Positions 4,665 through 27,082 of a stretch of DNA of 36,490 nucleotides are shown piece by piece. The stretch lies in IMG/VR virus record IMGVR_UViG_3300013126_000102, positions 1 to 36,490 of that record. The stretch is one strand, 5' to 3'. How positions within the stretch are numbered: position 1 is the stretch's first letter; each line of letters begins with the position of its first letter. This stretch comes from a virus. The position numbers and the translations under genes are program-made. A model generated the notes under the pieces. That model saw nothing but the letters and a program-made list of their open reading frames with translations, did no database searches and was not told the DNA's origin.

Positions 4665-4896
4665 TTTACCAGCTGGTGCAGAGACAGATCTTCGTGCACC
4701 TTGGAATCAAGTTAGTGACTTATGTAAGTATTGTGACCGGGATATAATCCACGGTATGGCTTTAGAAGCTTCTGATAAAGAAGAACGCACAGTAGAAGAG
4801 CTTGAAGAAGCTATGCTTGAACAAGCAGGAATGTGTGGTACTTGCTATAAAGACCAAAAAGAAGATGATGATGAATGGATCAATTGGCGAGATTGA
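4654..4896 (+). CDS. Small zinc-ribbon-like acidic protein
   Basis: An 80-residue protein with two cysteine pairs, CKYC near residue 24 and CGTC near residue 61, separated by an acidic helix (KEERTVEELEEAMLEQAG). The pairs probably bind one zinc ion. The C-terminus is strongly acidic (EDDDEWINWRD). It overlaps the ClpS gene by 32 nt, and the co-expression hints at a shared task, but function is unknown. Confidence 0.7.
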   Translation: MQSNLPAGAETDLRAPWNQVSDLCKYCDRDIIHGMALEASDKEERTVEELEEAMLEQAGMCGTCYKDQKEDDDEWINWRD

Positions 4897-5167
4897 AACC
4901 GTTGAACTAGAAGATGTTAAGCTTGACCTGTCCTTTATGGAGGACAGCAAGCTCATCTTGTTTAACGATGACCATAACAGCTTTGATAAAGTTATTATGG
5001 CTCTTATTATATATTGTCAACTAGACAATGAGAAAGCTGTAGAGCTTACTATGCAAATTCATACTAAAGGGAAAGCTGTTGTTAAATATGGTTCCCGGGA
5101 TAAACTTGAACCTATAGCAGATGTTCTTGGTCAACTAGACTTAACCTGTGAAATAGAGGACCCATGA
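4865..5167 (+). CDS. clpS: ClpS-like N-degron adaptor for Clp protease
   Basis: A 100-residue protein matching the whole ClpS core. ClpS carries substrates with destabilising N-terminal residues to the ClpA or ClpC unfoldase. Taking the first of three consecutive ATGs as residue 1, the substrate-binding set is visible: LFNDDHNSF with N34, D35, D36, and IHTKGKAVV with H66. F40 stands where E. coli has the gatekeeper Met40; from memory, Bacteroidetes ClpS also has Phe there. Start could be 4865, 4868 or 4871. It overlaps the zinc-ribbon gene before it and the first gene of the small-gene array after it (ATGA). Confidence 0.85.
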   Translation: MMMNGSIGEIETVELEDVKLDLSFMEDSKLILFNDDHNSFDKVIMALIIYCQLDNEKAVELTMQIHTKGKAVVKYGSRDKLEPIADVLGQLDLTCEIEDP

Positions 5168-5358
5168 TTGAGATTGGAGACTTTTTAAGAAGACAAGATG
5201 GTGTGGTTCTACTTGCAGTTGAACAAATAGGTGATAATCTACATAAATGTATTATAGTTAAACATCACCGCAAGCATCTTATAGGAACACCTACTTATGC
5301 TGATATTAGAAACTTAAACAATACAGTATTTATTAATCCTTTATTTATAGAGAAATGA
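5164..5358 (+). CDS. Array member 1, small beta-rich protein
   Basis: 64 residues: MIEIGDFLRRQDGVVLLAVEQ at the start and TVFINPLFIEK at the end. The opening GDFLRR resembles the GDF opening of members 9-14, although the two are far apart in the array. It begins in an ATGA overlap with clpS, which ties the array to the ClpS transcript. Function unknown. Confidence 0.7.
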   Translation: MIEIGDFLRRQDGVVLLAVEQIGDNLHKCIIVKHHRKHLIGTPTYADIRNLNNTVFINPLFIEK

Positions 5359-5588
5359 GTATAAAAAGTGAGTTACTAGGTAAGTATTTTATGGTTTCAA
5401 CATCTCCTCGTGAACAAATGCTTTTAAGAATTACAGATGTTTATACGAATATTTGTGAGGCTAGACGTGTAGATAGAATTACTGGTCATATCATAAGTGT
5501 AGGGGTTGCGGTTCATCTTTCTGATGTACATGTGCCGGTAAAAATTGTTAGAATTGACCCTCACCGTATAATAATTTTAAGCTCATGA
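5355..5588 (+). CDS. Array member 2, small beta-rich protein
   Basis: 77 residues beginning MSIKSELLGKYFMVSTSP and ending IDPHRIIILSS. The LLGKYF opening is like the GKWF opening of member 8. The final strand is all aliphatic (RIIIL) where later members have IWI or IFI. ATGA overlaps at both ends. Confidence 0.7.
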   Translation: MSIKSELLGKYFMVSTSPREQMLLRITDVYTNICEARRVDRITGHIISVGVAVHLSDVHVPVKIVRIDPHRIIILSS

Positions 5589-5806
5589 CTAGATCAAATA
5601 TATATTTTAAACATCAGGTTTTTAATATCTTACTAAAAGTTTTGGAAACTGAGAATAAAGGTTTTTATAAGGTTGCTAGGGTCAGTCCAAAAACAGGACA
5701 AGTCATGTATACTGAGAAAAATTTACACAGAGATCTTGAGTTTTACTACAATCAAGTAAGAGTTGTTAAGGTAGACTATGAGAAAGTAATAATTGTAAAG
5801 TCATGA
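5585..5806 (+). CDS. Array member 3, small basic protein
   Basis: 73 residues, basic, beginning MTRSNIYFKHQVFNILLKV and ending VDYEKVIIVKS. The closing strand (EKVIIVK) aligns with the EKV/DKQ-I-F-I ends of its neighbours. It has ATGA overlaps at both ends. It is one of the least typical members and could be taken for an unrelated gene without its position and tail. Confidence 0.65.
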   Translation: MTRSNIYFKHQVFNILLKVLETENKGFYKVARVSPKTGQVMYTEKNLHRDLEFYYNQVRVVKVDYEKVIIVKS

Positions 5807-5997
5807 AAGAAGGAGATTATGTAAAAACAGAGGGTGGTAATGTATACCGTCTTGTAAAACTAAGGCCAGATAAGTTGACAAACAACTATGATGTTTGGCT
5901 TGTGTATCAGTGTAGTGGCGGTTTCCGTGACTCTATGGCAGTGCTCTATATAACCGAGGATGTAAAGAAAGTTGTACCAATATTTATTGAGCCGTGA
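5803..5997 (+). CDS. Array member 4, SH3-like small protein
   Basis: 64 residues beginning MKEGDYVKTEGGNVYRLVKL and ending KKVVPIFIEP. The opening GDYVKTEGGNVYRL has the look of an SH3-like barrel and matches the GDF-x-x-D-x-x-x-x-x-x-V-F-x-I opening of members 10-13. It ends in a GTGA overlap with the next gene. Confidence 0.7.
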   Translation: MKEGDYVKTEGGNVYRLVKLRPDKLTNNYDVWLVYQCSGGFRDSMAVLYITEDVKKVVPIFIEP

Positions 5998-6206
5998 AAG
6001 ACTATTTAAATCAGTGGTTTGAAAGTCCTGCGGGAACCTTTCTTCTTCCAGTTAAATCTTTTACAATTAGTGGTGGGTCAGTTGTTTTTGAATGTAAAGC
6101 TCACGATAGAGTAGGAGTATTTATACATACTAAAGGTTATATAGATTCTGGCTCACCTGTGATGCCTATTAAGTTAGAGAATATCACATTATTTATAAAG
6201 AGATGA
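5994..6206 (+). CDS. Array member 5 (GTG start), WF sub-family
   Basis: 70 residues, with a GTG start in a GTGA overlap. This is the only non-ATG start in the array. The protein opens MKDYLNQWFESPAGTF and closes PIKLENITLFIKR. It is the first of four consecutive members with a WF pair near the N-terminus. Confidence 0.7.
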   Translation: MKDYLNQWFESPAGTFLLPVKSFTISGGSVVFECKAHDRVGVFIHTKGYIDSGSPVMPIKLENITLFIKR

Positions 6207-6448
6207 GTAGAACTAGAAGCTTTGAATTTAGTAAAGAGTATACATACAAGTGGTTTAAAAGAACTGAGAAAGACAATTCAATCTTTATTGTACATGGAGA
6301 ATTTAAGGCTCGGGATGGTACATCTTCTTATTATAACTGTAAGATGTATAACGGAGTGTCCTGTTCCTTAACTAGGAGCCAGATAGAAGATTCTTTACCT
6401 TTAAAGTCTATGTTAATAGACAACATAAGAATATTTATTAAAACGTAA
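6203..6448 (+). CDS. Array member 6, WF sub-family
   Basis: 81 residues with YTYKWFKRTEKDNS near residue 13 and the end LIDNIRIFIKT. The centre (YYNCKMYNGVSCSLTRSQIE) matches the centre of member 7 (HTCSFYNGHIDILTKAEVD): C-x-x-Y-N-G, then L-T-(R/K)-(S/A)-(Q/E)-(I/V). These two are the clearest pair in this block. It is followed by a 2-nt gap, the only gap in the array. Confidence 0.75.
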   Translation: MSRTRSFEFSKEYTYKWFKRTEKDNSIFIVHGEFKARDGTSSYYNCKMYNGVSCSLTRSQIEDSLPLKSMLIDNIRIFIKT

Positions 6449-6450
6449 AC

Positions 6451-6684
6451 ATGAATAAATTTCCTAAAAGCTATACCGGTCAATGGTTTAAAAATGTTAG
6501 TAGTTTTATTAGTCCTAGAATACCATCACATTCACCTTTTCAAGTACGTCATGTAGACACATTTTTTCATACCTGTAGTTTTTACAATGGTCACATTGAT
6601 ATTTTAACTAAAGCAGAGGTGGATCTTTGTGTGCCGATAAAGTGTTTTGAAGTAGATGGTAGAAGTATATTCCTAGAAACATGA
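6451..6684 (+). CDS. Array member 7, WF sub-family
   Basis: 77 residues opening MNKFPKSYTGQWFKNVSS and closing FEVDGRSIFLET. It shares the C-x-x-Y-N-G centre and the S(L)-P-(L/I)-K-(S/C) approach to the last strand with member 6. ATGA overlap with the next gene. Confidence 0.75.
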   Translation: MNKFPKSYTGQWFKNVSSFISPRIPSHSPFQVRHVDTFFHTCSFYNGHIDILTKAEVDLCVPIKCFEVDGRSIFLET

Positions 6685-6902
6685 TCATATTAGGTAAATG
6701 GTTTAGGCGTTATATGCCTATATCTCAAACTTATATTTATTATAAGGTAATTCAAATACTTGATACTAAACACTATAGCTTTAATATTGTTTCTATTGAC
6801 AGCACTGGTGTACAAAGAAGTATGAGTAGATCTGCTGTAGAACGTAGTGAAGAAGTAATGTGTCTTACACTTGATGATAAACAAATCTTTATACGCTTAT
6901 GA
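6681..6902 (+). CDS. Array member 8, WF sub-family
   Basis: 73 residues opening MIILGKWFRRYMPISQTY and closing LTLDDKQIFIRL. It is shorter at the N-terminus than members 6 and 7 and its tail is intermediate: the LTLDDKQ form is shared with the following GDF block, while IFI is shared with the preceding block. ATGA overlaps at both ends. Confidence 0.75.
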   Translation: MIILGKWFRRYMPISQTYIYYKVIQILDTKHYSFNIVSIDSTGVQRSMSRSAVERSEEVMCLTLDDKQIFIRL

Positions 6903-7129
6903 GTGATTTTAAAGTAGGTGACCATCTTGTAGATTATGAAGCTGAGGTAAATCCTAAATGTTTAGCTTGTTGCTTAATCATGAAGGTTACATCAGTTCAT
7001 GAAGAAACTCTTACCCTTGTTGGATTAGGTGCCGATATGTCTCACTATTTAGTATTTAAGGATGATCCTTACGTACAACTGCTGTACCAACTAGTTTTAG
7101 ATGATAAACCTTTATTTTTAGAAAGATGA
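6899..7129 (+). CDS. Array member 9, GDF sub-family
   Basis: 76 residues opening MSDFKVGDHLVDYEAEVNPK and closing LVLDDKPLFLER. It is the first of the block with V-G-D-x-x-x-D near residue 6. It contains a Cys pair (CLACC) absent from its neighbours. ATGA overlaps at both ends. Confidence 0.75.
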   Translation: MSDFKVGDHLVDYEAEVNPKCLACCLIMKVTSVHEETLTLVGLGADMSHYLVFKDDPYVQLLYQLVLDDKPLFLER

Positions 7130-7365
7130 GTAACATATATAAGCCCGGTGACTTTATAACAGATAGAGTTTTTCCTGGAGCAATCTATAAAATAACATCA
7201 GTTTACGATGGTTATTTTAATGTTAGACTTTTAGTTGTAGATCATAATGGTTTTTATGAAGATAATGAGTTAGGGGGTTTGTATAATAGATCTAATAGAG
7301 ATCCAGATATGGAAATAATGCATGTTATAGATTTAGATTCTAAAAAAATATGGATAACAAGATAG
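7126..7365 (+). CDS. Array member 10, GDF sub-family
   Basis: 79 residues opening MSNIYKPGDFITDRVFPGAI and closing IDLDSKKIWITR. The core P-G-D-F-I-x-D-x-x-F-P-x-x-(I/V)-(Y/F)-x-I is shared with member 12 at many positions. Its last 16 nt are also the first 16 nt of member 11, the first of five identical-length junctions. Confidence 0.8.
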   Translation: MSNIYKPGDFITDRVFPGAIYKITSVYDGYFNVRLLVVDHNGFYEDNELGGLYNRSNRDPDMEIMHVIDLDSKKIWITR

Positions 7366-7610
7366 AAAATATTGATGTAGGAACTTTTATAGTTGATGAT
7401 TCTTATCCAGACGCTGTATTTACAGTAACTAAGATAGATCCTCCTATATCTTTTAGCATGAAGCCTTACAAGCACAATGAGTATACAACAGAGGATTTTA
7501 GATATGCTAGATTCTATGATAGCTATACACCAGTTGTAAGACGTGACTTCATATATAGGGTAGTTTTTAGAGTAAAACTAGATAATAAAGAAATATGGAT
7601 ACCAAGATGA
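7350..7610 (+). CDS. Array member 11, GDF sub-family
   Basis: 86 residues opening MDNKIENIDVGTFIVDDSYP and closing KLDNKEIWIPR. GTFIVDDSYPDAVFTV replaces the GDF form but keeps the spacing. It starts within the last codons of member 10 in a 16-nt overlap and ends in another. Confidence 0.8.
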   Translation: MDNKIENIDVGTFIVDDSYPDAVFTVTKIDPPISFSMKPYKHNEYTTEDFRYARFYDSYTPVVRRDFIYRVVFRVKLDNKEIWIPR

Positions 7611-7870
7611 AAGATCTAAAGTCATTATGGTCACCTGGAGATTTTGTAAAAGATTTTTACTTTCCTGATAACGTCTTCTGTATTATAGATATACTTGAGC
7701 AAGCTGAAGATAACTTTAGATTAAACTTAGTAACTGTTGAAGATACTGGTGATACTAGTGACTTTAATTACGGAAAGGGAGATAGGGCCCGAAGAAGACT
7801 TAATGATCCAAGTTTATATAAAGTATGCAGATTAACCTTAGAAGAAGAGACAGTATGGATACCCACATAA
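7595..7870 (+). CDS. Array member 12, GDF sub-family
   Basis: 91 residues, the longest unit, opening MDTKMKDLKSLWSPGDFVKD and closing LTLEEETVWIPT. The start at 7595 makes the 16-nt overlap seen at the other junctions; an in-frame ATG at 7607 would give a 4-nt ATGA overlap instead. Either is possible. Confidence 0.8.
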   Translation: MDTKMKDLKSLWSPGDFVKDFYFPDNVFCIIDILEQAEDNFRLNLVTVEDTGDTSDFNYGKGDRARRRLNDPSLYKVCRLTLEEETVWIPT

Positions 7871-8124
7871 TATCTTGTGTTTACCTAGGAGGTGATTTTG
7901 TAAAAGATGATGTATTTGTGGGTAACGTTTTCCGTATCTCGCATGTATTTGATTTTGTTAAAAGGCCTCCTACACTATGCTTAGAGTGCATTGAATCTGA
8001 TCCCAAATCTGAGGATCTACAGTATAAAAAAGGACAGGTTATCTATAGAAATAAAACATCCGAGGGATTGTTTAAAGTACATAAGCTAACCTTAGAAAAC
8101 AAAACAATATGGATACGGAGGTAA
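7855..8124 (+). CDS. Array member 13, GDF sub-family
   Basis: 89 residues from the ATG at 7855, opening MDTHIISCVYLGGDFVKDDV and closing LTLENKTIWIRR. An in-frame ATG at 7825 exists, but 7855 gives the same 16-nt junction as the neighbours and places the family motif at the usual distance from the start. GGDFVKDDVFVGNVFRI is very close to member 12. Confidence 0.8.
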   Translation: MDTHIISCVYLGGDFVKDDVFVGNVFRISHVFDFVKRPPTLCLECIESDPKSEDLQYKKGQVIYRNKTSEGLFKVHKLTLENKTIWIRR

Positions 8125-8354
8125 AAAAGTATCCTGTGGGTACATTCTTAAAGGATCGTGTTCTAAAAAATACTGTATTTGAGATAATGCAGTATACTAG
8201 CTATGATATCGTTGAGATAGAAATAACATTCTTTAATGGTACTAATAAAAATAAATACAGGCATGCTAATCCATTAACATGGATTAGTGATCGAGATGTG
8301 TATGAAGTAAGAAAAGTATTAATAGAAGATAAGCTCATATGGATACCAATGTAA
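8109..8354 (+). CDS. Array member 14, GDF sub-family
   Basis: 81 residues opening MDTEVKKYPVGTFLKDRVLK and closing LIEDKLIWIPM. It is the last recognisable member. It overlaps by 16 nt with member 13 and with the unrelated gene at 8339. Confidence 0.8.
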   Translation: MDTEVKKYPVGTFLKDRVLKNTVFEIMQYTSYDIVEIEITFFNGTNKNKYRHANPLTWISDRDVYEVRKVLIEDKLIWIPM

Positions 8355-8650
8355 AAAACAAGACTAGAAAAACTGATGTAGAAATAACTAAAGATATTAT
8401 AAACACTATGTTTGTAATAGCTGAGTTAGATGTTACCGTTGATGATTTAACAGATAATAAGGATGATTGGTATAACCAATATACTATGACTCCTGAACAA
8501 GATGCTACCTGGACAGACTGGGCAATTAAGTACTTAAAGAAACATAAAGCTTGGAGTACAGCTAAGTGTCGCAAAGAATTTAGCTGGTTAAAACTAGCTT
8601 ATGGACTAAAAGTTATTTACCCTAAACAACAAGAATGTCATGAAGGTTAA
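8339..8650 (+). CDS. Hypothetical protein joined to the array by its 16-nt junction
   Basis: A 103-residue protein whose first residues, MDTNVKN, resemble those of member 14 (MDTEVKK), while the rest (MTPEQDATWTDWAIKYLKKH) is unrelated to the array. It has a tryptophan-rich, probably helical C-terminal half. Its start lies inside the last 16 nt of member 14. It looks like a gene whose 5' end came from the array. Function unknown. Confidence 0.7.
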   Translation: MDTNVKNKTRKTDVEITKDIINTMFVIAELDVTVDDLTDNKDDWYNQYTMTPEQDATWTDWAIKYLKKHKAWSTAKCRKEFSWLKLAYGLKVIYPKQQECHEG

Positions 8651-8876
8651 TGGAGATAAGATTGTAAATGCTGTAATAGCTTTATTGTTTCTCGCGTGTG
8701 TTGTACAGTTTGTACTTATTTATTATAAGTACAAGGACAAAGAAATTACCCCGGGCAAACCCTGGAGAGAAGTATGTTTAGATAACAACATTGATACTAA
8801 TACAGTAGGTACTACTTCAGATCCTACTGATGAAGAACTATTAGAGTATGAAAGAGCTACTAGAGAAACTGATTAA
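8640..8876 (+). CDS. Small membrane protein, N-terminal anchor
   Basis: 78 residues. A hydrophobic segment at about residues 9-28 (IVNAVIALLFLACVVQFVLI) is followed by a basic stretch (YYKYKDKE) and an acidic tail. With few positive charges before the segment and several after it, the C-terminal part should be cytoplasmic. It overlaps the gene at 8339 by 11 nt. Function unknown. Confidence 0.65.
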   Translation: MKVNGDKIVNAVIALLFLACVVQFVLIYYKYKDKEITPGKPWREVCLDNNIDTNTVGTTSDPTDEELLEYERATRETD

Positions 8877-9475: not shown

Positions 9476-9937
9476 ATGACACCAACTAAGCAAACAGTTT
9501 ATGTACCTGTAAAGGTAGAAGATAGGAGAACTCCTGAGTTTTATAGAGATAGATTATTTCTTTTGAGAGGAGAAGTAAGGGATGTTGGAGATTATATGGG
9601 TGATAATGTTTTCTACTCACAAACAGATACAAAAACAACTCAAGAAGTAACTCAGTGGCTTAGCCCACAAGAAGGCTACTTCTTCACACCTGAGCAGCTT
9701 AATGAGTACACAAAGGAGGTAATTAAAGAAGCTCTTGCGACTGCTGCTGAGAAAGCTAAAGTTGTTGAAGAAGAGCTAGGTGATAATGAGCTTAGAGAAA
9801 CACCTATTAGTACGTTTCAATCCCATAGTTTTACTGCGGATAAGGGGTATGAAGAGTGCTCTTATTACAGATATACAAGCTCAAAAGAATCAATCACCAA
9901 CACCTTTGAACAAACCTTTAATAAATTTAAGCTATGA
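9476..9937 (+). CDS. Hypothetical protein, 153 residues
   Basis: Opens MTPTKQTVYVPVKVEDRRTP. The middle has WLSPQEGYFFTPEQLNEYTK followed by an alanine/glutamate-rich helix that may form a short coiled coil. The motif 'eGYVFTPEELxxLxxxxxxxA' is common in Bacteroidetes phage and prophage proteins, from memory. It ends in an ATGA overlap with the next gene and probably acts with it. Confidence 0.7.
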   Translation: MTPTKQTVYVPVKVEDRRTPEFYRDRLFLLRGEVRDVGDYMGDNVFYSQTDTKTTQEVTQWLSPQEGYFFTPEQLNEYTKEVIKEALATAAEKAKVVEEELGDNELRETPISTFQSHSFTADKGYEECSYYRYTSSKESITNTFEQTFNKFKL

Positions 9938-10284
9938 CCACAAGAGTAAACTTTGAGATAGCAAAATTGCTAAAAGAGAAGGGGTTTGAGCAAAATGCTA
10001 TGAAATACATTAATCAAGCAACGATGGAAGGGACTGTTGTTTTTCCAACCATCGGTGAAGTAGTAATGTGGCTGTATAAGAAGCATGGGATTTGGATTAG
10101 TGTTGACATAGTTGATAATACTACTGAATTTTATTTCTACCCTACTATTACTACTTGCAAAGAAAGAGAATATCACGATGAGGATATGACTGACCAAGCA
10201 AGGCAACATTATGGTGAGGAATCTAAAACACCAACTGAAGCCTACTTAGCAGGTATTGAATACACACTTGAAAAGTTAATCTAA
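9934..10284 (+). CDS. Conserved Bacteroidetes phage protein of unknown function
   Basis: 116 residues opening MTTRVNFEIAKLLKEKGFEQ. The sequence PTIGEVVMWLYKKHGIWISV and the end TPTEAYLAGIEYTLEKLI match a widespread small protein of Bacteroidetes phages and conjugative elements, recognised from memory. The family has no assigned biochemical role. It is coupled to the gene at 9476. Confidence 0.75.
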   Translation: MTTRVNFEIAKLLKEKGFEQNAMKYINQATMEGTVVFPTIGEVVMWLYKKHGIWISVDIVDNTTEFYFYPTITTCKEREYHDEDMTDQARQHYGEESKTPTEAYLAGIEYTLEKLI

Positions 10285-10321
10285 TGGGTATCTGGATTTG
10301 GGCTGATTAAAAATTAATAAC

Positions 10322-10699
10322 ATGAAAAAAGTATTAACCTTAATGTTGTTACTTGTATGTAGTATTACGTACTCACAAGTAACAATGAAAGCTACTAGTA
10401 TCACCGTTGGTACTAGAGCTAATTCTTATTCAGAAGTGGTCTTTGGTGAAACGGAGTATGATATTAACATACCGGTACACGTTACCAAAGATGATGTTGT
10501 ACATATTTACTCTAAGGAAGACCAGGTTTATTATAAAACCAGTCTTACTAAAAAAGGAGATAATGGAGATTTAACTTGGACTGCTATAGACCAAGATGGT
10601 GACCGCTGCACTATGTATTTAATGACGGTAGACGGGCAATCTTATCTACTAATAGAGTTTGCTAACATTGCCTGGTATTACGGATTAGAAAATTACTAG
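10322..10699 (+). CDS. Exported protein with signal peptide
   Basis: 125 residues with a clear signal peptide: basic MKK, hydrophobic core LTLMLLLVCSI, and cleavage after TYS before Gln20, the usual flavobacterial YSQ pattern. The mature part is about 106 residues and beta-rich, without a lipobox cysteine. It would be released to the periplasm. In a phage early region such a protein may block superinfection or alter the envelope, which is inference. A 37-nt gap precedes it. Confidence 0.75.
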   Translation: MKKVLTLMLLLVCSITYSQVTMKATSITVGTRANSYSEVVFGETEYDINIPVHVTKDDVVHIYSKEDQVYYKTSLTKKGDNGDLTWTAIDQDGDRCTMYLMTVDGQSYLLIEFANIAWYYGLENY

Positions 10700-21075: not shown

Positions 21076-21491
21076 TGGAAAACACAGTATTATTTACAGA
21101 GCAAGGGTATAACAACTTGTTATTAATGGTTAAATCCTCAGATAAGGAGAATCATGTTATTGTACGTAGCATCTTAGAAGGTGCTGATATGAGTAAAGCA
21201 ATTGTATATGCTTTGTTATTATATAAAGAAATGGACCGCTCATTAAGAGACGATATCTTTTCTGATGAAGTTGTAGAGGCCATGAAGCCATATGTGGTTA
21301 TTAAAGAGTCAAGTTTTAAAAACATTGACTGGGCAAATATTATTGAGATAGCAATTGCCAACAAAGAAGCTTGTCCAGAAGGAGAAGGTGTAGTAGTTGG
21401 TCGTTTTGCTAAAGAGATTGAACATCAGCTTGTAGAAAGTGGGTTTGAGTTCATGAAGAATTATAATTTATTTATTACTAAACGTGTATGA
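21075..21491 (+). CDS. Hypothetical protein, 138 residues
   Basis: Opens MENTVLFTEQGYNNLLLMVK, all-helical in appearance, without recognisable motifs. TAATG overlap upstream and ATGA overlap with the metallopeptidase exon downstream suggest that it is made with the MoxR-VWA pair. Function unknown. Confidence 0.65.
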   Translation: MENTVLFTEQGYNNLLLMVKSSDKENHVIVRSILEGADMSKAIVYALLLYKEMDRSLRDDIFSDEVVEAMKPYVVIKESSFKNIDWANIIEIAIANKEACPEGEGVVVGRFAKEIEHQLVESGFEFMKNYNLFITKRV

Positions 21492-21781
21492 ATAAACACG
21501 ATAGCTTAGCCAAAGCTAGTAAAGAACTAATGTTGAAGGAGCCCTTTTATGGGCTCTTTCTTATTAGTCTTAACAAAGTTTGGGAAAACAGGGTTCCTAC
21601 CGCAGGTGTGAGTAAGAACAATATTAATTATCAGCTTAGTATTAATGAAAAGTTTTGGGAAGCGCTATCGCATGTGCACCATATAGGTCTCTTGAAACAT
21701 GAGCTCTTACACATTGCTTTCTTTCATCTTACTATGCATGATAACTTTGCAGACAAAGAGTTAGCTAACATAGCTATGGAT
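21488..21781 (+). CDS. VWA-domain metallopeptidase, exon 1
   Basis: Codons 1-98 of a 400-residue spliced protein. HELLHIAFFH at residues 71-80 is an HExxH zinc site, the mark of the DUF2201 N-terminal metallopeptidase-like domain. The frame would stop two codons after the exon boundary if not spliced (TAA at 21785). The junction restores IAMD-LEINQYID, the usual sequence of the family. A hairpin in codons 17-24 resembles a weak terminator. These proteins pair with MoxR ATPases, here the next gene. Confidence 0.85.
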
Positions 21782-21960
21782 TTGTAACTAAGTCCCGCTG
21801 TATAGTAATGTACAGTATGAAAGCTTTAAATTGACGGGAAGTTCCTTAGAGCTTAATCTACCAAGCATTTGTAGTAATACAACTGTGGCTGAAGTAATTA
21901 CTCAGGTATGGTAAAAAAGATTAAGATTGGATAATCCGCAGCCAAATTTCTTAAATAGTT

Positions 21961-21991
21961 TTGGTATAATGGAAATTAATTAGTATATTAG
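21961..21991 (+). promoter_or_regulatory. Intron-internal promoter for the LAGLIDADG gene
   Basis: TTG at 21961-21963, 20 nt, then TATATTAG at 21984-21991, one mismatch from TAnnTTTG. The ATG follows 3 nt later, so the transcript would start almost at the start codon. Confidence 0.55.
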
Positions 21992-21994
21992 TGT

Positions 21995-22834
21995 ATGAAG
22001 AAACTAGTAGTACCAATTGATAAAGTTATACTTATGTATAATCAAGGTATGAGTTGCAGTAAAATTGCAGCCACCTTTAACTGTTCAGAATCCTTTATTA
22101 ATAAAAAGATTGCTGAGCAAAACATTACAAAAAGAGCCGGTGGTTCTTATAGAAGAAACTATGATCAAAATTTCTTTGATGTTATTGACACAGAAGCTAA
22201 GGCTTATTGGTTAGGATTTTTGTATGCAGATGGTTGCGTACAAGAAAAATTAACAGGTCAAAAGCTAATATCATTAGCGGTTAAAGACAAAGAGGTTATA
22301 GATAAATTTATAGAATCCTTAAAAGGAAACTTTGTAACTAAGACTTATAAAGATGTACACACTGTACATCTTACTAGCACGATAATGTTTAACTCTCTTG
22401 TTAAACATGGTTGCATTCCTAGGAAGTCATTAGTCCTGAAGTTTCCGAATCTTCCAGCTGACCTAGTTAATCATTTTATGAGAGGTTATTTTGATGGAGA
22501 TGGTTCTGTCTTTATAACTTATCCTAAGAATCGCAATAAAACAAATACAATTTACAAGAGTATTGGTATTGGTATATGCGGGACAAAGGAGTTTCTATCT
22601 GAGTATAATAAATACTTAGGTTTTAATGAAGCTAAAAAGGATAAGAGAAAAAAGAGTAATGTTTGGTATTTATCTACATCTGGTACAAATAAAGCAAAAG
22701 CTTTTTATGAATTTATTTATAAAGATGCTACTGTATATTTAACCAGAAAAAAAGATAAGTTTGAAAACTATTTTAAAGAAAGAGGTTCAACGACTACAAT
22801 AAGCCATCCTAATAAGGATGAAGGTATAGTCTGA
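21995..22834 (+). CDS. LAGLIDADG homing endonuclease
   Basis: 279 residues. The N-terminal 45 residues form a resolvase-like helix-turn-helix (MSCSKIAATFNCSESFINKK). Two LAGLIDADG helices follow, YWLGFLYADG at 71-80 and MRGYFDGDG at 162-170, so it is a single-chain two-motif enzyme. It would cut intron-less copies of the metallopeptidase gene. The last codons, from residue 264 onward, overlap the P7-P3-P8-P7' core of the host intron, and its TGA lies directly after the TATAGTC element. Confidence 0.9.
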   Translation: MKKLVVPIDKVILMYNQGMSCSKIAATFNCSESFINKKIAEQNITKRAGGSYRRNYDQNFFDVIDTEAKAYWLGFLYADGCVQEKLTGQKLISLAVKDKEVIDKFIESLKGNFVTKTYKDVHTVHLTSTIMFNSLVKHGCIPRKSLVLKFPNLPADLVNHFMRGYFDGDGSVFITYPKNRNKTNTIYKSIGIGICGTKEFLSEYNKYLGFNEAKKDKRKKSNVWYLSTSGTNKAKAFYEFIYKDATVYLTRKKDKFENYFKERGSTTTISHPNKDEGIV

Positions 22835-22864
22835 TCTACAGGGAAACTTGTAGTTAACATCATG

Positions 22865-23773
22865 TTAGAGATCAACCAATATATTGATCCTCAGTATCTT
22901 CCACCAGATGGTTGTACTATAGATAGTGAGAAATTTAAAAAATACAACTTACCACCAAAAGCTGGTTGTAGAGAATATTATGACATCCTATCTAAAGCAA
23001 AAGATAAGGAGCAACAAAATGGCGGAGGTAAGAGTAAACTTCAAAAGATGCTTGATGCTATGGCTAATGGACAAAGTCACGATGAAGATGGTGATGCAGT
23101 TCCTGATCACAGCACTTGGAAAGATTTTGAAGATTTATCAGAAGCAGAAAAGAAGCTTATTGAAAAGCAATTAGAGCATACTCTTAAAGAAGTAGCGCAG
23201 CAAGTTAAAGCTCGTGGTACCGTTCCTGGAGAAATGCAAGGGTTGCTTGATAAACTTCAAAATCCAGAACCGCCTAAGTTTGACTGGCGCGGATATCTTA
23301 GAAGATTTGCTGGAGGCTCTCAAAAAGTGTATACCAAAAAGCTTAGAAGAAAATACAATAAGCGTTTTGAAGATATGGCTGGTTTAAAGATTAAGCCTAG
23401 AAAACATATCTTAGTATCTATTGATACTAGTGGATCTGTGTGTGATGATGAACTAAGAGAGTTCTTTCACGAGATAGATCATATGTATAAAACCGGTTGT
23501 GATATTACTGTATTACAGTGTGACACAAGGATTAATAGTATAAAACCCTATAAACCAGGGGACACTGTAGAAATATTTGGGCGCGGTGGTACCGAGTTTG
23601 ACCCAGTATTAGAGTATTATAATGAACATTTACGTCATTATAGCTGCATGATTTATTTAACAGATGGCGAATGCTACTGTAATGTAAAACCAAGAGGTAA
23701 AATGTTGTGGGTAATGTCTTCTCGTTCACAGTTGAATGAGTCATTACCAGGACCAAAGATCAAATTGAATTAA
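22865..23773 (+). CDS. VWA-domain metallopeptidase, exon 2
   Basis: Codons 99-400 of the spliced protein. It holds a charged linker (DEDGDAVPDHSTWKDFEDLS) and then a von Willebrand A domain with a complete MIDAS: DTSGS near residue 285, the Thr of GGTEFDP, and LTDGE near residue 364. An ATG at 22862 would allow separate translation, but its G is the last intron base. Its MIDAS probably engages the MoxR ATPase encoded 14 nt downstream. Confidence 0.88.
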   Translation, partial: LEINQYIDPQYLPPDGCTIDSEKFKKYNLPPKAGCREYYDILSKAKDKEQQNGGGKSKLQKMLDAMANGQSHDEDGDAVPDHSTWKDFEDLSEAEKKLIEKQLEHTLKEVAQQVKARGTVPGEMQGLLDKLQNPEPPKFDWRGYLRRFAGGSQKVYTKKLRRKYNKRFEDMAGLKIKPRKHILVSIDTSGSVCDDELREFFHEIDHMYKTGCDITVLQCDTRINSIKPYKPGDTVEIFGRGGTEFDPVLEYYNEHLRHYSCMIYLTDGECYCNVKPRGKMLWVMSSRSQLNESLPGPKIKLN

Positions 23774-23787
23774 TAAAAACTAAGAAA

Positions 23788-24021
23788 ATGGCTAAGAAAG
23801 AAAGTACTCAAGTAGACTTAACAACTGATGAGTTAAAAGGATTTGTAAATCACATTGTGACTAACAATAGATATCTACAAAATAACGGGAAGATTCCCGT
23901 GGCAATTGCTGTAGAAGGTGAAGCGGGTATTGGTAAGACCAGTACTATTTTGGAGATCGGTCAAGAACTAGGTCTTCACGTTGTTAAGGTTAACTTAGCT
24001 CAGATTGAGGAGATTGGGGAT
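23788..24021 (+). CDS. MoxR-type AAA+ ATPase, exon 1
   Basis: Codons 1-78 of a 402-residue spliced ATPase. Walker A GEAGIGKT is at residues 44-51. The exon ends in AQIEEIGD; the intron begins with TAA, so unspliced RNA would give a truncated protein ending exactly at the junction. MoxR proteins are chaperone-like ATPases that activate partner proteins with VWA domains. This one follows its probable VWA partner directly. Confidence 0.88.
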
Positions 24022-24041
24022 TAATATTAAGTTTTTTGTTG

Positions 24042-24049
24042 TATATTTG
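24042..24049 (+). promoter_or_regulatory. Intron-internal -7 promoter box
   Basis: TATATTTG, a perfect TAnnTTTG box, 16 nt before the endonuclease ATG at 24066. The nearest TTG at a plausible distance is 25 nt upstream, so the -33 element is weak. Confidence 0.5.
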
Positions 24050-24065
24050 TATAAACAAAGATGCA

Positions 24066-24827
24066 ATGAAAAATAATCTTCTCAATTTGAGCGCTAAAAC
24101 GTTAAGAGGTAAATCAGGTATCTATCTTATTAAATGCAAAGATCACGCATATGTAGGAAGCAGTAAGTCTTTATATGACCGATTACTAGAACATAGACAG
24201 AAACTTATTAATAATAAGCATTCTAATGATTTTATGTTAAAAGCATTTAATAAATATGGTATACATGCATTTACCTATGAGATTTTAGAATTCTGCAACC
24301 CTGAAACCAGGATAAGCAGAGAAAAGTATTTTATAGATTTTATAAAACCTGATATGAATTTACAACTGGACCCTGTATTACATACACTAAGTGTGTATAG
24401 CCGGCAAAAGTTAAGTAAATCCATTAAGGATGGAATAAGCAAGGGTAAGTATAAAACTAAGTTTGACTATTGTGAAATAGACTGCTATGACTACTTAGGT
24501 AACTATGTTACAACTTACCCTGATAAAGAAAAGTGTGCCGAAGAACTAGGTATAACTAATAAGCAAGTTCAAAAATTTGCAGGCGGTTATACTAAAGGTC
24601 TTGCATATAAAGGCTATAGACTTAGATATAAGTCTAGTAATACACCTATTAAAACTTTTCCTATTAATCCTAATTACTTAGGCAAGCATTATAAATTTTT
24701 ATATGATTCTAAAGAAGGTGAGCAGATTGCTTTTACTAGTGTAAAAGATGTATGGTCTTTCTTCTCAGAGCAAATCATAAAAGGTAATAATGAAATATCT
24801 ATAAAAATAAAAGTAAAAACCAGTTAG
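24066..24827 (+). CDS. GIY-YIG homing endonuclease 1
   Basis: 253 residues from the ATG at 24066; a longer frame begins at a TTG before the -7 promoter box and is rejected. KSGIYLIKCKDHAYVGSSKS (near residue 16) has the GIY and YVG halves; the catalytic Arg is in DRLLEHR and the Glu in SREKYFIDFIKP. The C-terminal half holds a NUMOD-like DNA-binding unit (CYDYLGNYVTTYPDKEKCAE). Its last codons and TAG stop are also the P10 guide of the intron. It is a paralogue of the enzyme at 25356. Confidence 0.9.
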   Translation: MKNNLLNLSAKTLRGKSGIYLIKCKDHAYVGSSKSLYDRLLEHRQKLINNKHSNDFMLKAFNKYGIHAFTYEILEFCNPETRISREKYFIDFIKPDMNLQLDPVLHTLSVYSRQKLSKSIKDGISKGKYKTKFDYCEIDCYDYLGNYVTTYPDKEKCAEELGITNKQVQKFAGGYTKGLAYKGYRLRYKSSNTPIKTFPINPNYLGKHYKFLYDSKEGEQIAFTSVKDVWSFFSEQIIKGNNEISIKIKVKTS

Positions 24828-25087
24828 GTCCCCATTAAATTTCGTGAACTCAGGGAACATCCTACTAAGGACAATCCTGATCCAAGCATTGTAGAAATAC
24901 ATTGAAGGAGCAACGACTAGATAAAGTATTCTTACCAGATGGTGCTGAAGAAGAAATATCCACGAGCGCGAAACATTACCTTATATCTACCAAGATTTAA
25001 AGGGTAATGATGATATAGTCTGAACACTACGTATATATATAAAGGTAGTGAAGCATAAGATAAAGAGCTTATGCGATAACATGAATG

Positions 25088-25300
25088 TTGACTGGTTTTC
25101 CTATTAAGGAGTATGAAGTATCTAAGACTACTGATGACGGAAGTAAAGTATCTAAATGGATTCCTGAAAACGTTATGCCTATGTATATTCAAAATAAGTA
25201 TGTGCCAACTGGAGAAAAGCGCATGTCTCATGCTACTCCAGAGTGGATTCAAGGTAAAGAAGAAGGTGGAATTTTGATTTTAGATGACTATACTCGTGCT
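25088..25300 (+). CDS. MoxR-type AAA+ ATPase, exon 2
   Basis: Codons 79-149. It opens LTGFPIKEYEV, which joins naturally to exon 1's EEIGD, and contains Walker B ILILDDY with D144 and D145. It ends in TRA right beside the active site. The next intron begins with TAA, again closing the frame at the boundary. Confidence 0.85.
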
Positions 25301-25318
25301 TAAAAATTATAAATATTT

Positions 25319-25351
25319 TTTAGTATAGTCATCAAGAATATTGTATATTTG
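25319..25351 (+). promoter_or_regulatory. Intron-internal promoter for GIY-YIG gene 2
   Basis: TATATTTG at 25344-25351 is a perfect -7 box; TTTAG ending at 25323 lies 20 nt upstream as a poor -33 element. The ATG at 25356 follows 4 nt later, suggesting a leaderless or nearly leaderless transcript. Confidence 0.5.
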
Positions 25352-25355
25352 GCGT

Positions 25356-26093
25356 ATGAATAATCTATACGCTGCTAAGAATCTGACTAAAAACTATTCA
25401 AAGTCAGGTATCTATATGTTACTAATAAATAACAAAACTTATATAGGAAGTTCTGTATGCATGAGTAAGAGATTATTTTGTCATAGGAGAAGACTTAAAA
25501 CAGGAAAACATGCTAACATCATACTAATTAATCATTTTAAAAAGTATGGTGAGAAGAGTTGTTTTTTTAAAGTCTTAGAATACTGTGAGCAAAAAGATTT
25601 ACTTACTCGTGAGAAGTTTTATATTGATACTTTAAAACCTGAGCTTAACATTGAACAAGACCCCGTGTTACAACAAGGATCTTATAAATGTAAAAAGGTT
25701 TATCAATATACTCTAGACGGACGTTTTATTAAAGAGCATCTTTCCGCAGCATCTGCTGAAAGAGAATTAGGCAAAAACAGTAGCATGATTGCTTCTGCAG
25801 CTAGAGGAAATACTTCTTTTAGATCAGCCTATGGTTATTTTTGGTCATATGAAAAAACAGATAAGGTTTCATATAGTAACAATAGTCATAAAGCTAAAGC
25901 TAAAACGATAGAAAAATGTGATTCATTTGGTAGTTTTATATGTGAATACCCATCAATTGCTGATGCAGTTAGGGATTTACAGTTAAAAGGAAATTTTGAT
26001 TCACATTGTACTAATGTTTCAGCATGTTGTAGAAATATTACAACACAAGCTTATGGTTACATATGGAAATTTAAAACGAGAGTGGGCACGTAA
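25356..26093 (+). CDS. GIY-YIG homing endonuclease 2
   Basis: 245 residues from the ATG at 25356; the frame extends back to a TTG that overlaps the promoter. KSGIYMLLINNKTYIGSSVC holds the GIY and YIG halves, KRLFCHRRR the Arg, and TREKFYIDTLKP the Glu. Two NUMOD-like repeats follow (VYQYTLDGRFIKEHLSAASA, then CDSFGSFICEYPSIADAVRD, each ending in AYGY-x-W). The final codons KTRVGT encode the P10 and P1 guides, and the TAA directly follows the guide. Confidence 0.9.
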   Translation: MNNLYAAKNLTKNYSKSGIYMLLINNKTYIGSSVCMSKRLFCHRRRLKTGKHANIILINHFKKYGEKSCFFKVLEYCEQKDLLTREKFYIDTLKPELNIEQDPVLQQGSYKCKKVYQYTLDGRFIKEHLSAASAERELGKNSSMIASAARGNTSFRSAYGYFWSYEKTDKVSYSNNSHKAKAKTIEKCDSFGSFICEYPSIADAVRDLQLKGNFDSHCTNVSACCRNITTQAYGYIWKFKTRVGT

Positions 26094-26320
26094 TTGGGAG
26101 AATTGCTGGGACATCTTTACTTATGAAGACAATCAGCAGCCGAGCTTAGAATTTAAAAGTTCTTTGAAGGTTCAACGACTAATCCTTGAAACCAGTTTAC
26201 TGGAATATAATAGGAACACGAGCACCCAACACACAAGTATGTGTGAAGATATAGTCTGGACTATACGTATATATAAAGGTATAGAAAATCAAGTTAAATG
26301 CTTGATTGATAACAAGTTAG

Positions 26321-27082
26321 GACTCTCGTTTTTTACAGGCATGTATGGAGTTGATTGACCGTCAAACTTATATTTCTTGGAAGTTACCAAAAGACTGGCA
26401 TATTATCTTGACTACTAATCCTGATACTGGTGACTATAACGTTACTAGTATTGACGTAGCTCAAAAGACTCGCTTTATCACAACTAACTTAAAGTTTGAT
26501 GTAGACTGCTGGGCACGCTGGGCAGAGAAAAATGAGATTGACTCTCGTTGTATTAACTTCTTGTTGATGCATCCTGAGACGGTAAATCAGAGAACTAATG
26601 CTCGTAGTATTACTACATTCTTCAATAGTATTTCTAGCTTAGAAAGCTTTGAGGAAAGCTTACCACTAATCCAAATGATTGGTGAAGGTAGCGTAGGTGC
26701 TGAGTTTGCTAGCTTGTTTACTATGTTTATTCACAACAAGTTAGATAAGATGACATCTCCTAAAGATATGCTAACTCACACTAGCTGGGAGTATATCAAA
26801 GGTCAGCTTAATGCAACAATGGGTAAAGTGGGTGAAGATACTTATCGTGCGGACATTGCCAGCGTACTAGCTCACCGTTTGATTAACTACACTGTACACT
26901 ATTCTGAATCTAATGCAGTTGACCAGAAGATTATTGACCGTATTACAGCTTATGTTACTGATGCGGATATTTTCACTAATGACCTTAAATATGCTATTGT
27001 AAAAAGCATTGTTAATGGTAACAAAGCCAAGTTTACTAAGCTCATGTTGAATCCCGAGATCGTTAAAATGGCGGTAAAATAA
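26321..27082 (+). CDS. MoxR-type AAA+ ATPase, exon 3
   Basis: Codons 150-402. Joined at base 26321 it reads DSRFLQACMELIDRQTYISW, restoring the unbroken family sequence DDYTRAD. Sensor 1 is IILTTNPDTGDYN; the C-terminal helical lid follows (RSITTFFNSISSLESFEESL). An ATG at 26345 would allow a partial product but drops seven conserved residues. TAATG overlap with the next gene. Confidence 0.88.
   Translation, partial: DSRFLQACMELIDRQTYISWKLPKDWHIILTTNPDTGDYNVTSIDVAQKTRFITTNLKFDVDCWARWAEKNEIDSRCINFLLMHPETVNQRTNARSITTFFNSISSLESFEESLPLIQMIGEGSVGAEFASLFTMFIHNKLDKMTSPKDMLTHTSWEYIKGQLNATMGKVGEDTYRADIASVLAHRLINYTVHYSESNAVDQKIIDRITAYVTDADIFTNDLKYAIVKSIVNGNKAKFTKLMLNPEIVKMAVK

Follow-up and report, generated by a model that had tools for sequence, protein, structure and literature searches.

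We found that fourteen consecutive small ORFs (g1 to g14; positions 5164-8354, + strand) lie directly 3' of a phage clpS gene, in a place that in related genomes is a hypervariable accessory slot, with fixed borders, variable content, faster evolution than its flanks and exchange between genomes. We read the array as an extreme, 14-member expansion of this slot, in which small barrel proteins would act as binders of changing host targets and together make up a standing binder set; we give this reading a little less than an even chance. The targets and the function of the barrels are what we infer in it. The window, by which we mean the whole stretch of DNA analysed, is a 36,490-base record classed as virus. 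Since the longest related contigs reach 98-123 kb, it is probably a piece of a larger genome.

The array and its two flanking genes are as follows.

clpS, 4802..5167, + strand: left slot border; uncertain start codon; residues 50-107 are the ClpS domain
g1, 5164..5358, + strand: 64 aa, type B
g2, 5355..5588, + strand: 77 aa, weakly linked member, pairs with g3
g3, 5585..5806, + strand: 73 aa, weakly linked member
g4, 5803..5997, + strand: 64 aa, type B; AlphaFold pLDDT 68, predicted SH3-like
g5, 5994..6206, + strand: 70 aa, type C, GTG start
g6, 6203..6448, + strand: 81 aa, type C
g7, 6451..6684, + strand: 77 aa, type C
g8, 6681..6902, + strand: 73 aa, type C; link between types C and A
g9, 6899..7129, + strand: 76 aa, type A
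g10, 7126..7365, + strand: 79 aa, type A; AlphaFold pLDDT 81, predicted SH3-like
g11, 7350..7610, + strand: 86 aa, type A; 16-nt overlap start
g12, 7595..7870, + strand: 91 aa, type A; 16-nt overlap start
g13, 7855..8124, + strand: 89 aa, type A; 16-nt overlap start
g14, 8109..8354, + strand: 81 aa, type A; 16-nt overlap start
g15, 8339..8650, + strand: conserved gene, right slot border; 16-nt overlap start

A tandem array of fourteen ORFs had been described by a first-pass annotation of this DNA, and we recovered every one of them, at the same positions, as a single unbroken chain (14/14, counting ORFs of at least 60 aa). The longest chain never exceeded 1 in 500 Markov shuffles of the same stretch, and it was also 1 on the opposite strand. 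The array occupies 3.2 kb of a compact genome, and its members are 64-91 aa long if g13 is taken to start at the ATG at 7855 (89 aa); as the longest ORF, g13 would start at 7825 and measure 99 aa. The junctions take three forms: nine genes (g1-g6, g8-g10) share exactly 4 nt (ATGA or GTGA) with the gene before them; g7 starts 2 nt past the end of g6; and for g11-g14 together with g15 the shared stretch is exactly 16 nt, the start reading ATGGATA. Promoters and terminators internal to the array showed no excess over shuffled sequences. The pI of the array proteins spans 4.5 to 9.7 with no common charge, and that of the slot proteins in relatives is mostly acidic. We rejected an assembly artefact as the origin of the array, as the copies are strongly diverged and similar genes sit in the same slot of other contigs.

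Both borders of the slot are conserved genes. The clpS product matches Pfam PF02617 (E 4e-16; 59 bits vs a curated cut-off of 23), so the phage ClpS noted earlier directly before the array is real. It is kept in 23 relatives, and, as a putative N-degron adaptor to ClpA, it has an NDDHN stretch that is invariant in the ClpS alignment. Among GenBank phages, ClpS matches came from three uncultured phage records of 635-642 kb and no others. The right border, g15, encodes 103 aa in the window and 97 aa in relatives, and has orthologues at 19 loci, with 41-48% identity. Upstream of clpS, the gene at window positions 4140-4664 matches a PHROG annotated as a ParB-like partition protein (E 6e-10).

Kinship among the members was visible in pairwise alignments, where 21/91 array pairs exceeded a Z of 4, vs 0/91 control pairs drawn from other small proteins of the window. 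The farther apart two members lie, the less similar they are (Mantel r -0.54, p 5e-5), and similarity is organised in blocks, with pairwise Z up to 11.5 within g5-g8, up to 13.8 within g9-g14, 5.6 for g2-g3 and 3.2 for g1-g4. A profile of g9-g14 matches g8 at E 5e-6, and it also matches single-copy genes of the relatives (E down to 6e-7), which ranked above 296 decoy proteins; a type B profile built from relatives matches g4 at E 6e-4. The link between types A and B is weak in profile comparison (P 8e-4, probability 25%), and the weakest links to the rest of the array are those of g2 and g3. Judged by these alignments, most array members are homologous, with g2 and g3 linked weakly.

Two features of the earlier description held in part. 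The shared C-terminal strand pattern is clear in g5-g14 but reduced in g1-g4, and the three types in blocks are roughly as described (g9-g14 are type A, g5-g8 type C and g1/g4 type B), except that g2 and g3 pair together and are weakly linked. Identity of the type A members to g10 is 25-30%, and the longest direct DNA repeats in the array are 37-49 nt long with 65-81% identity. Similarity in blocks together with decay over distance is the pattern of repeated duplication of neighbours followed by divergence. The 16-nt junction common to g11-g15 suggests that the last duplications in the array carried the g15 junction along with them.

We modelled two of the fourteen members, g10 and g4, the latter from the most distant type. 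The AlphaFold model of g10 is an all-beta domain of six strands (pLDDT 81, pTM 0.71), and its best structural matches are mostly SH3-like barrels (Spt5 KOW, UvrD/PcrA Tudor, RapA; Z 5.3-6.4). The g4 model is weaker (pLDDT 68, C-terminus unsure); its matches are SH3-like barrels, with the N-domain of EF-P on top (Z 6.7). Three UvrD/PcrA Tudor chains (5dma, 7egs, 9dqs) are common to the two match lists. Foldseek alone returned nothing below E 1e-3 in the PDB or viral models, two proteins of the crAss-like phage cr111_1 ranking second and third with TM about 0.6, and the type A profile had no sequence match in the PDB. An SH3-like small barrel fold is likely for g10 and g4 on these models, which supports for two distant types the barrel-like fold proposed earlier. 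All structural matches of both proteins stay at Z <8; together with the Foldseek result, this makes the fold class likely and a closer family assignment impossible. In the arrangement of their strands, the models resemble the KOW, Tudor and EF-P N-domain barrels (Z about 5-6.7 across roughly 50-56 residues), but we found no sequence relation between those barrels and the array, and the structural Z is tied among many families, so that function is not transferable. MazF/CcdB-type toxins were considered and set aside because neither model contains a helix.

We then compared the same slot, between clpS and g15, in related genomes. A ClpS search in IMG/VR gave 24 loci, 23 within the lineage and one distant (L027). 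The slot holds 0, 1, 2 or 3 barrel genes in the 23 relatives, vs 14 in the window: none in L013, L019, L021 and L024; one in L004-L011, L025 and L026 (the last starting inside clpS at a contig end); two in L014-L017, L020 and L023; and three in L012, L018 and L022. Some loci are repeated, with identical slot genes (L005/L006, L008/L009 and L014/L015/L016). Types A and B occur in at most one copy each per relative and, in the relatives' records searched, in the slot only. Type B adjoins g15 in the relatives that have it; in the window it is type A that adjoins g15. Random absence from relatives had been raised as a point against the array. Four of the 23 slots do lack a barrel gene, but the others carry one to three homologues in the same slot, and the pattern is presence/absence variation of an accessory locus, not random disruption. 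The L019 slot (8368-8790) holds instead a gene for a 141-aa protein with a cREC_REC domain (PF20274, E 1.2e-22). A role in phage-host conflict has been proposed for cREC, namely the processing of cyclic nucleotides or RNA ends (PMC7824862), and in view of that proposed role the gene fits a host-conflict reading of the slot.

A second small paralogous family lies just downstream in some relatives (L022, at 9914-10648 or offsets 1563-2297 after clpS, and L005, L006 and L025). Its members have 'QTAVEWF'-like starts and 'YNETYGG'-like ends, and form one to three tandem copies.

In the relatives, slot genes evolve faster than their surroundings. By simple tree-free counting on relatives' genes 70-75 codons long (the window array has no close relative), pooled dN/dS was 0.90 for type A (bootstrap 95% 0.76-1.11) and 0.63 for type B (0.53-0.75), vs 0.11-0.27 for eight nearby genes (ClpS 0.14, g15 0.27, six further genes 0.11-0.26). 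These values support the diversification that had been proposed for the family. Within type A, dN/dS reaches 1.23 in the middle while the ends are conserved, with dN of 0.13 in the first 20 codons and 0.07 in the last 20. The last 20 codons also have a low dS (0.09), for which recombination in the conserved ends may be the cause. L010 and L012, whose ClpS proteins are 84% identical, have type B at 100% identity, and in L014, L022 and L023 type B is 95-97% identical although type A is at 58-65%. These identities show that slot cassettes swap between genomes singly and independently of their flanks.

Searches for the family elsewhere reached close relatives only. Within that reach, types A and B gave no further contig among 2.9 million viral contigs, and type A was absent from the bacterial and archaeal genomes searched. 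The single members g12 and g6 had no relative in viral contigs, and in GenBank phages neither the region (at the nucleotide level) nor a relative's type A protein had a match. Pfam, PHROGs, NCBIfam and PADLOC, libraries that cover part of the known anti-defence proteins, gave no credible match for the members scanned. Word searches of open-licence papers found no report of such an array. We tried one further candidate, a conserved gene of ~90-105 aa near clpS in more distant contigs ('KVICI...YTV...PYEFY'; L071, L072, L027, L067, L068), and dropped it, because no profile link to the array was found and its own profile found nothing in the closer relatives.

Two considerations shaped our interpretation: (i) fixed borders, content that is variable, fast-evolving and exchangeable, and absence in some genomes indicate that the slot is not core machinery; and (ii) a pI range of 4.5-9.7 without a common charge disfavours a single nucleic-acid-binding role and favours protein surfaces that vary. 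On both grounds we favour small proteins that bind host proteins, with defence proteins most likely among them. Such variable slots in phages commonly carry genes aimed at the host. The array bears the pattern of stepwise tandem duplication with divergence of the copies. We propose that each barrel would be a small soluble binder with a surface, mainly mid-chain, adapted to a host protein target that changes, most likely a defence or host-takeover protein. The members would be translated together from one message after ClpS, and the 14 copies would form a standing set with different targets or specificities. It is less likely, though a fair possibility, that one phage keeps a repertoire of 14 single-domain binders from one scaffold, each for a different host defence or other host protein; that each member would counter a different host factor, as the first-pass annotation suggested, is again something we infer. 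Several points speak against the binder reading: none of the members scanned has a sequence match to a family already known, whether counter-defence or other; relaxed constraint, too, can give a dN/dS near 1; the dN/dS values come from the relatives and not from the window's array; and SH3-like barrels have many functions, with all structural matches at Z <8.

Relaxed constraint, under which duplicates would accumulate in the slot and drift with little function, is indeed what a dN/dS near 1 and the empty slots of some relatives could indicate. We nevertheless consider it unlikely, given that 14/14 ORFs are open and tightly packed, that 3.2 kb has been retained in a compact genome, and that the ends of type A are conserved while its middle exceeds 1. 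An alternative is a partnership with the phage ClpS, in which the barrels would select or protect substrates of host AAA+ proteases and the array would be a panel of adaptors or anti-adaptors: g1 overlaps clpS by 4 nt and is probably co-translated with it, the slot follows clpS in 23/23 relatives, and the structural matches include HspQ (5ycq, Z 5.5), a specificity factor for Lon. However, ClpS persists in the four relatives without any barrel gene, so a link to proteolysis is possible but not needed; ClpS also evolves slowly (dN/dS 0.14), and dozens of other SH3-like barrels tie with HspQ in the match list. We judge such a partnership improbable.

The best structural matches raise a different role, since RNA polymerase or the ribosome is the binding partner of many KOW, Tudor and EF-P N-domains, and the barrels could by analogy bind these or nucleic acid and redirect host gene expression. 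The fold is generic at Z <8, however, the pI values range from 4.5 to 9.7 and are mostly acidic in relatives, and rapid evolution would be unexpected against a conserved target, which makes this role quite improbable. Least credible is the suggestion in the first-pass annotation that the members build one mixed-subunit structure. Co-translation of 14 related single-domain proteins would suit such a complex, but relatives manage with 0-3 genes and members are exchanged singly; we found nothing positively in its favour and regard it as very unlikely.

Parallels to the proposed binder set exist in known phages. Under defence pressure, T4 makes tandem copies of tifA, which encodes TifA, an 85-aa inhibitor of ToxN (PMC9391042), and in T6 anti-defence loci undergo SegB-driven amplification (PMC13096335). 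As in the array, small phage genes are multiplied in tandem in these cases, where the repeats arise through short homologies or with a homing endonuclease (PMC9391042, PMC13096335). The T-even copies, however, are recent repeats of one segment selected for dosage, whereas the 14 members of the array are strongly diverged and their anti-defence role would be an extrapolation on our part. We rejected dosage-type amplification of the tifA kind for the array, which lacks near-identical copies (type A members at 25-30% identity to g10; longest direct repeats at 65-81%). Nip, the NADase inhibitor of Bacillus phage phi3T, is a counter-defence protein with predicted SH3-like domains that binds a TIR domain (PMC11984713). 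It shares with the array proteins a phage origin and a predicted SH3-like fold (PMC11984713); unlike them, it has 279 aa, with two SH3-like domains and an HU-like domain. Bacillus phage G carries a lineage-specific zinc-ribbon expansion of about 35 copies (PMC7824862), likewise a phage-specific expansion of one small domain. Those zinc ribbons have another fold and are proposed there as transcription factors or structural DNA-binding proteins; the passage on them in PMC7824862 describes neither a tandem slot between two fixed genes nor a measure of selection.

If the binder reading holds, duplication, diversification and swapping of a single small scaffold in one slot would provide a simple marker, made up of fixed borders, copy number and dN/dS, by which new phage inhibitors and the host proteins they target could be found. 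It would also offer a natural series in which one fold has many specificities. With clpS and g15 as borders, the slot can readily be traced in other genomes.

Elsewhere in the window, we noted a group I intron and putative homing-type ORFs. The intron, at 26051-26277 (Rfam RF00028, 58 bits, E 1.8e-12), overlaps the end of ORF 25341-26093, whose N-terminus is GIY-YIG-like by eye. Also by eye, an AAA+ ATPase-like gene at 23788-26358 is seemingly split twice by GIY-YIG-like ORFs (24036-24827 and 25341-26093). Three ORFs, again read by eye, follow one another at 21488-23773: the first is metallopeptidase-like (21488-21787), the second homing-endonuclease-like (21995-22834) and the third VWA-like (22862-23773), and this arrangement is possibly another intron insertion.
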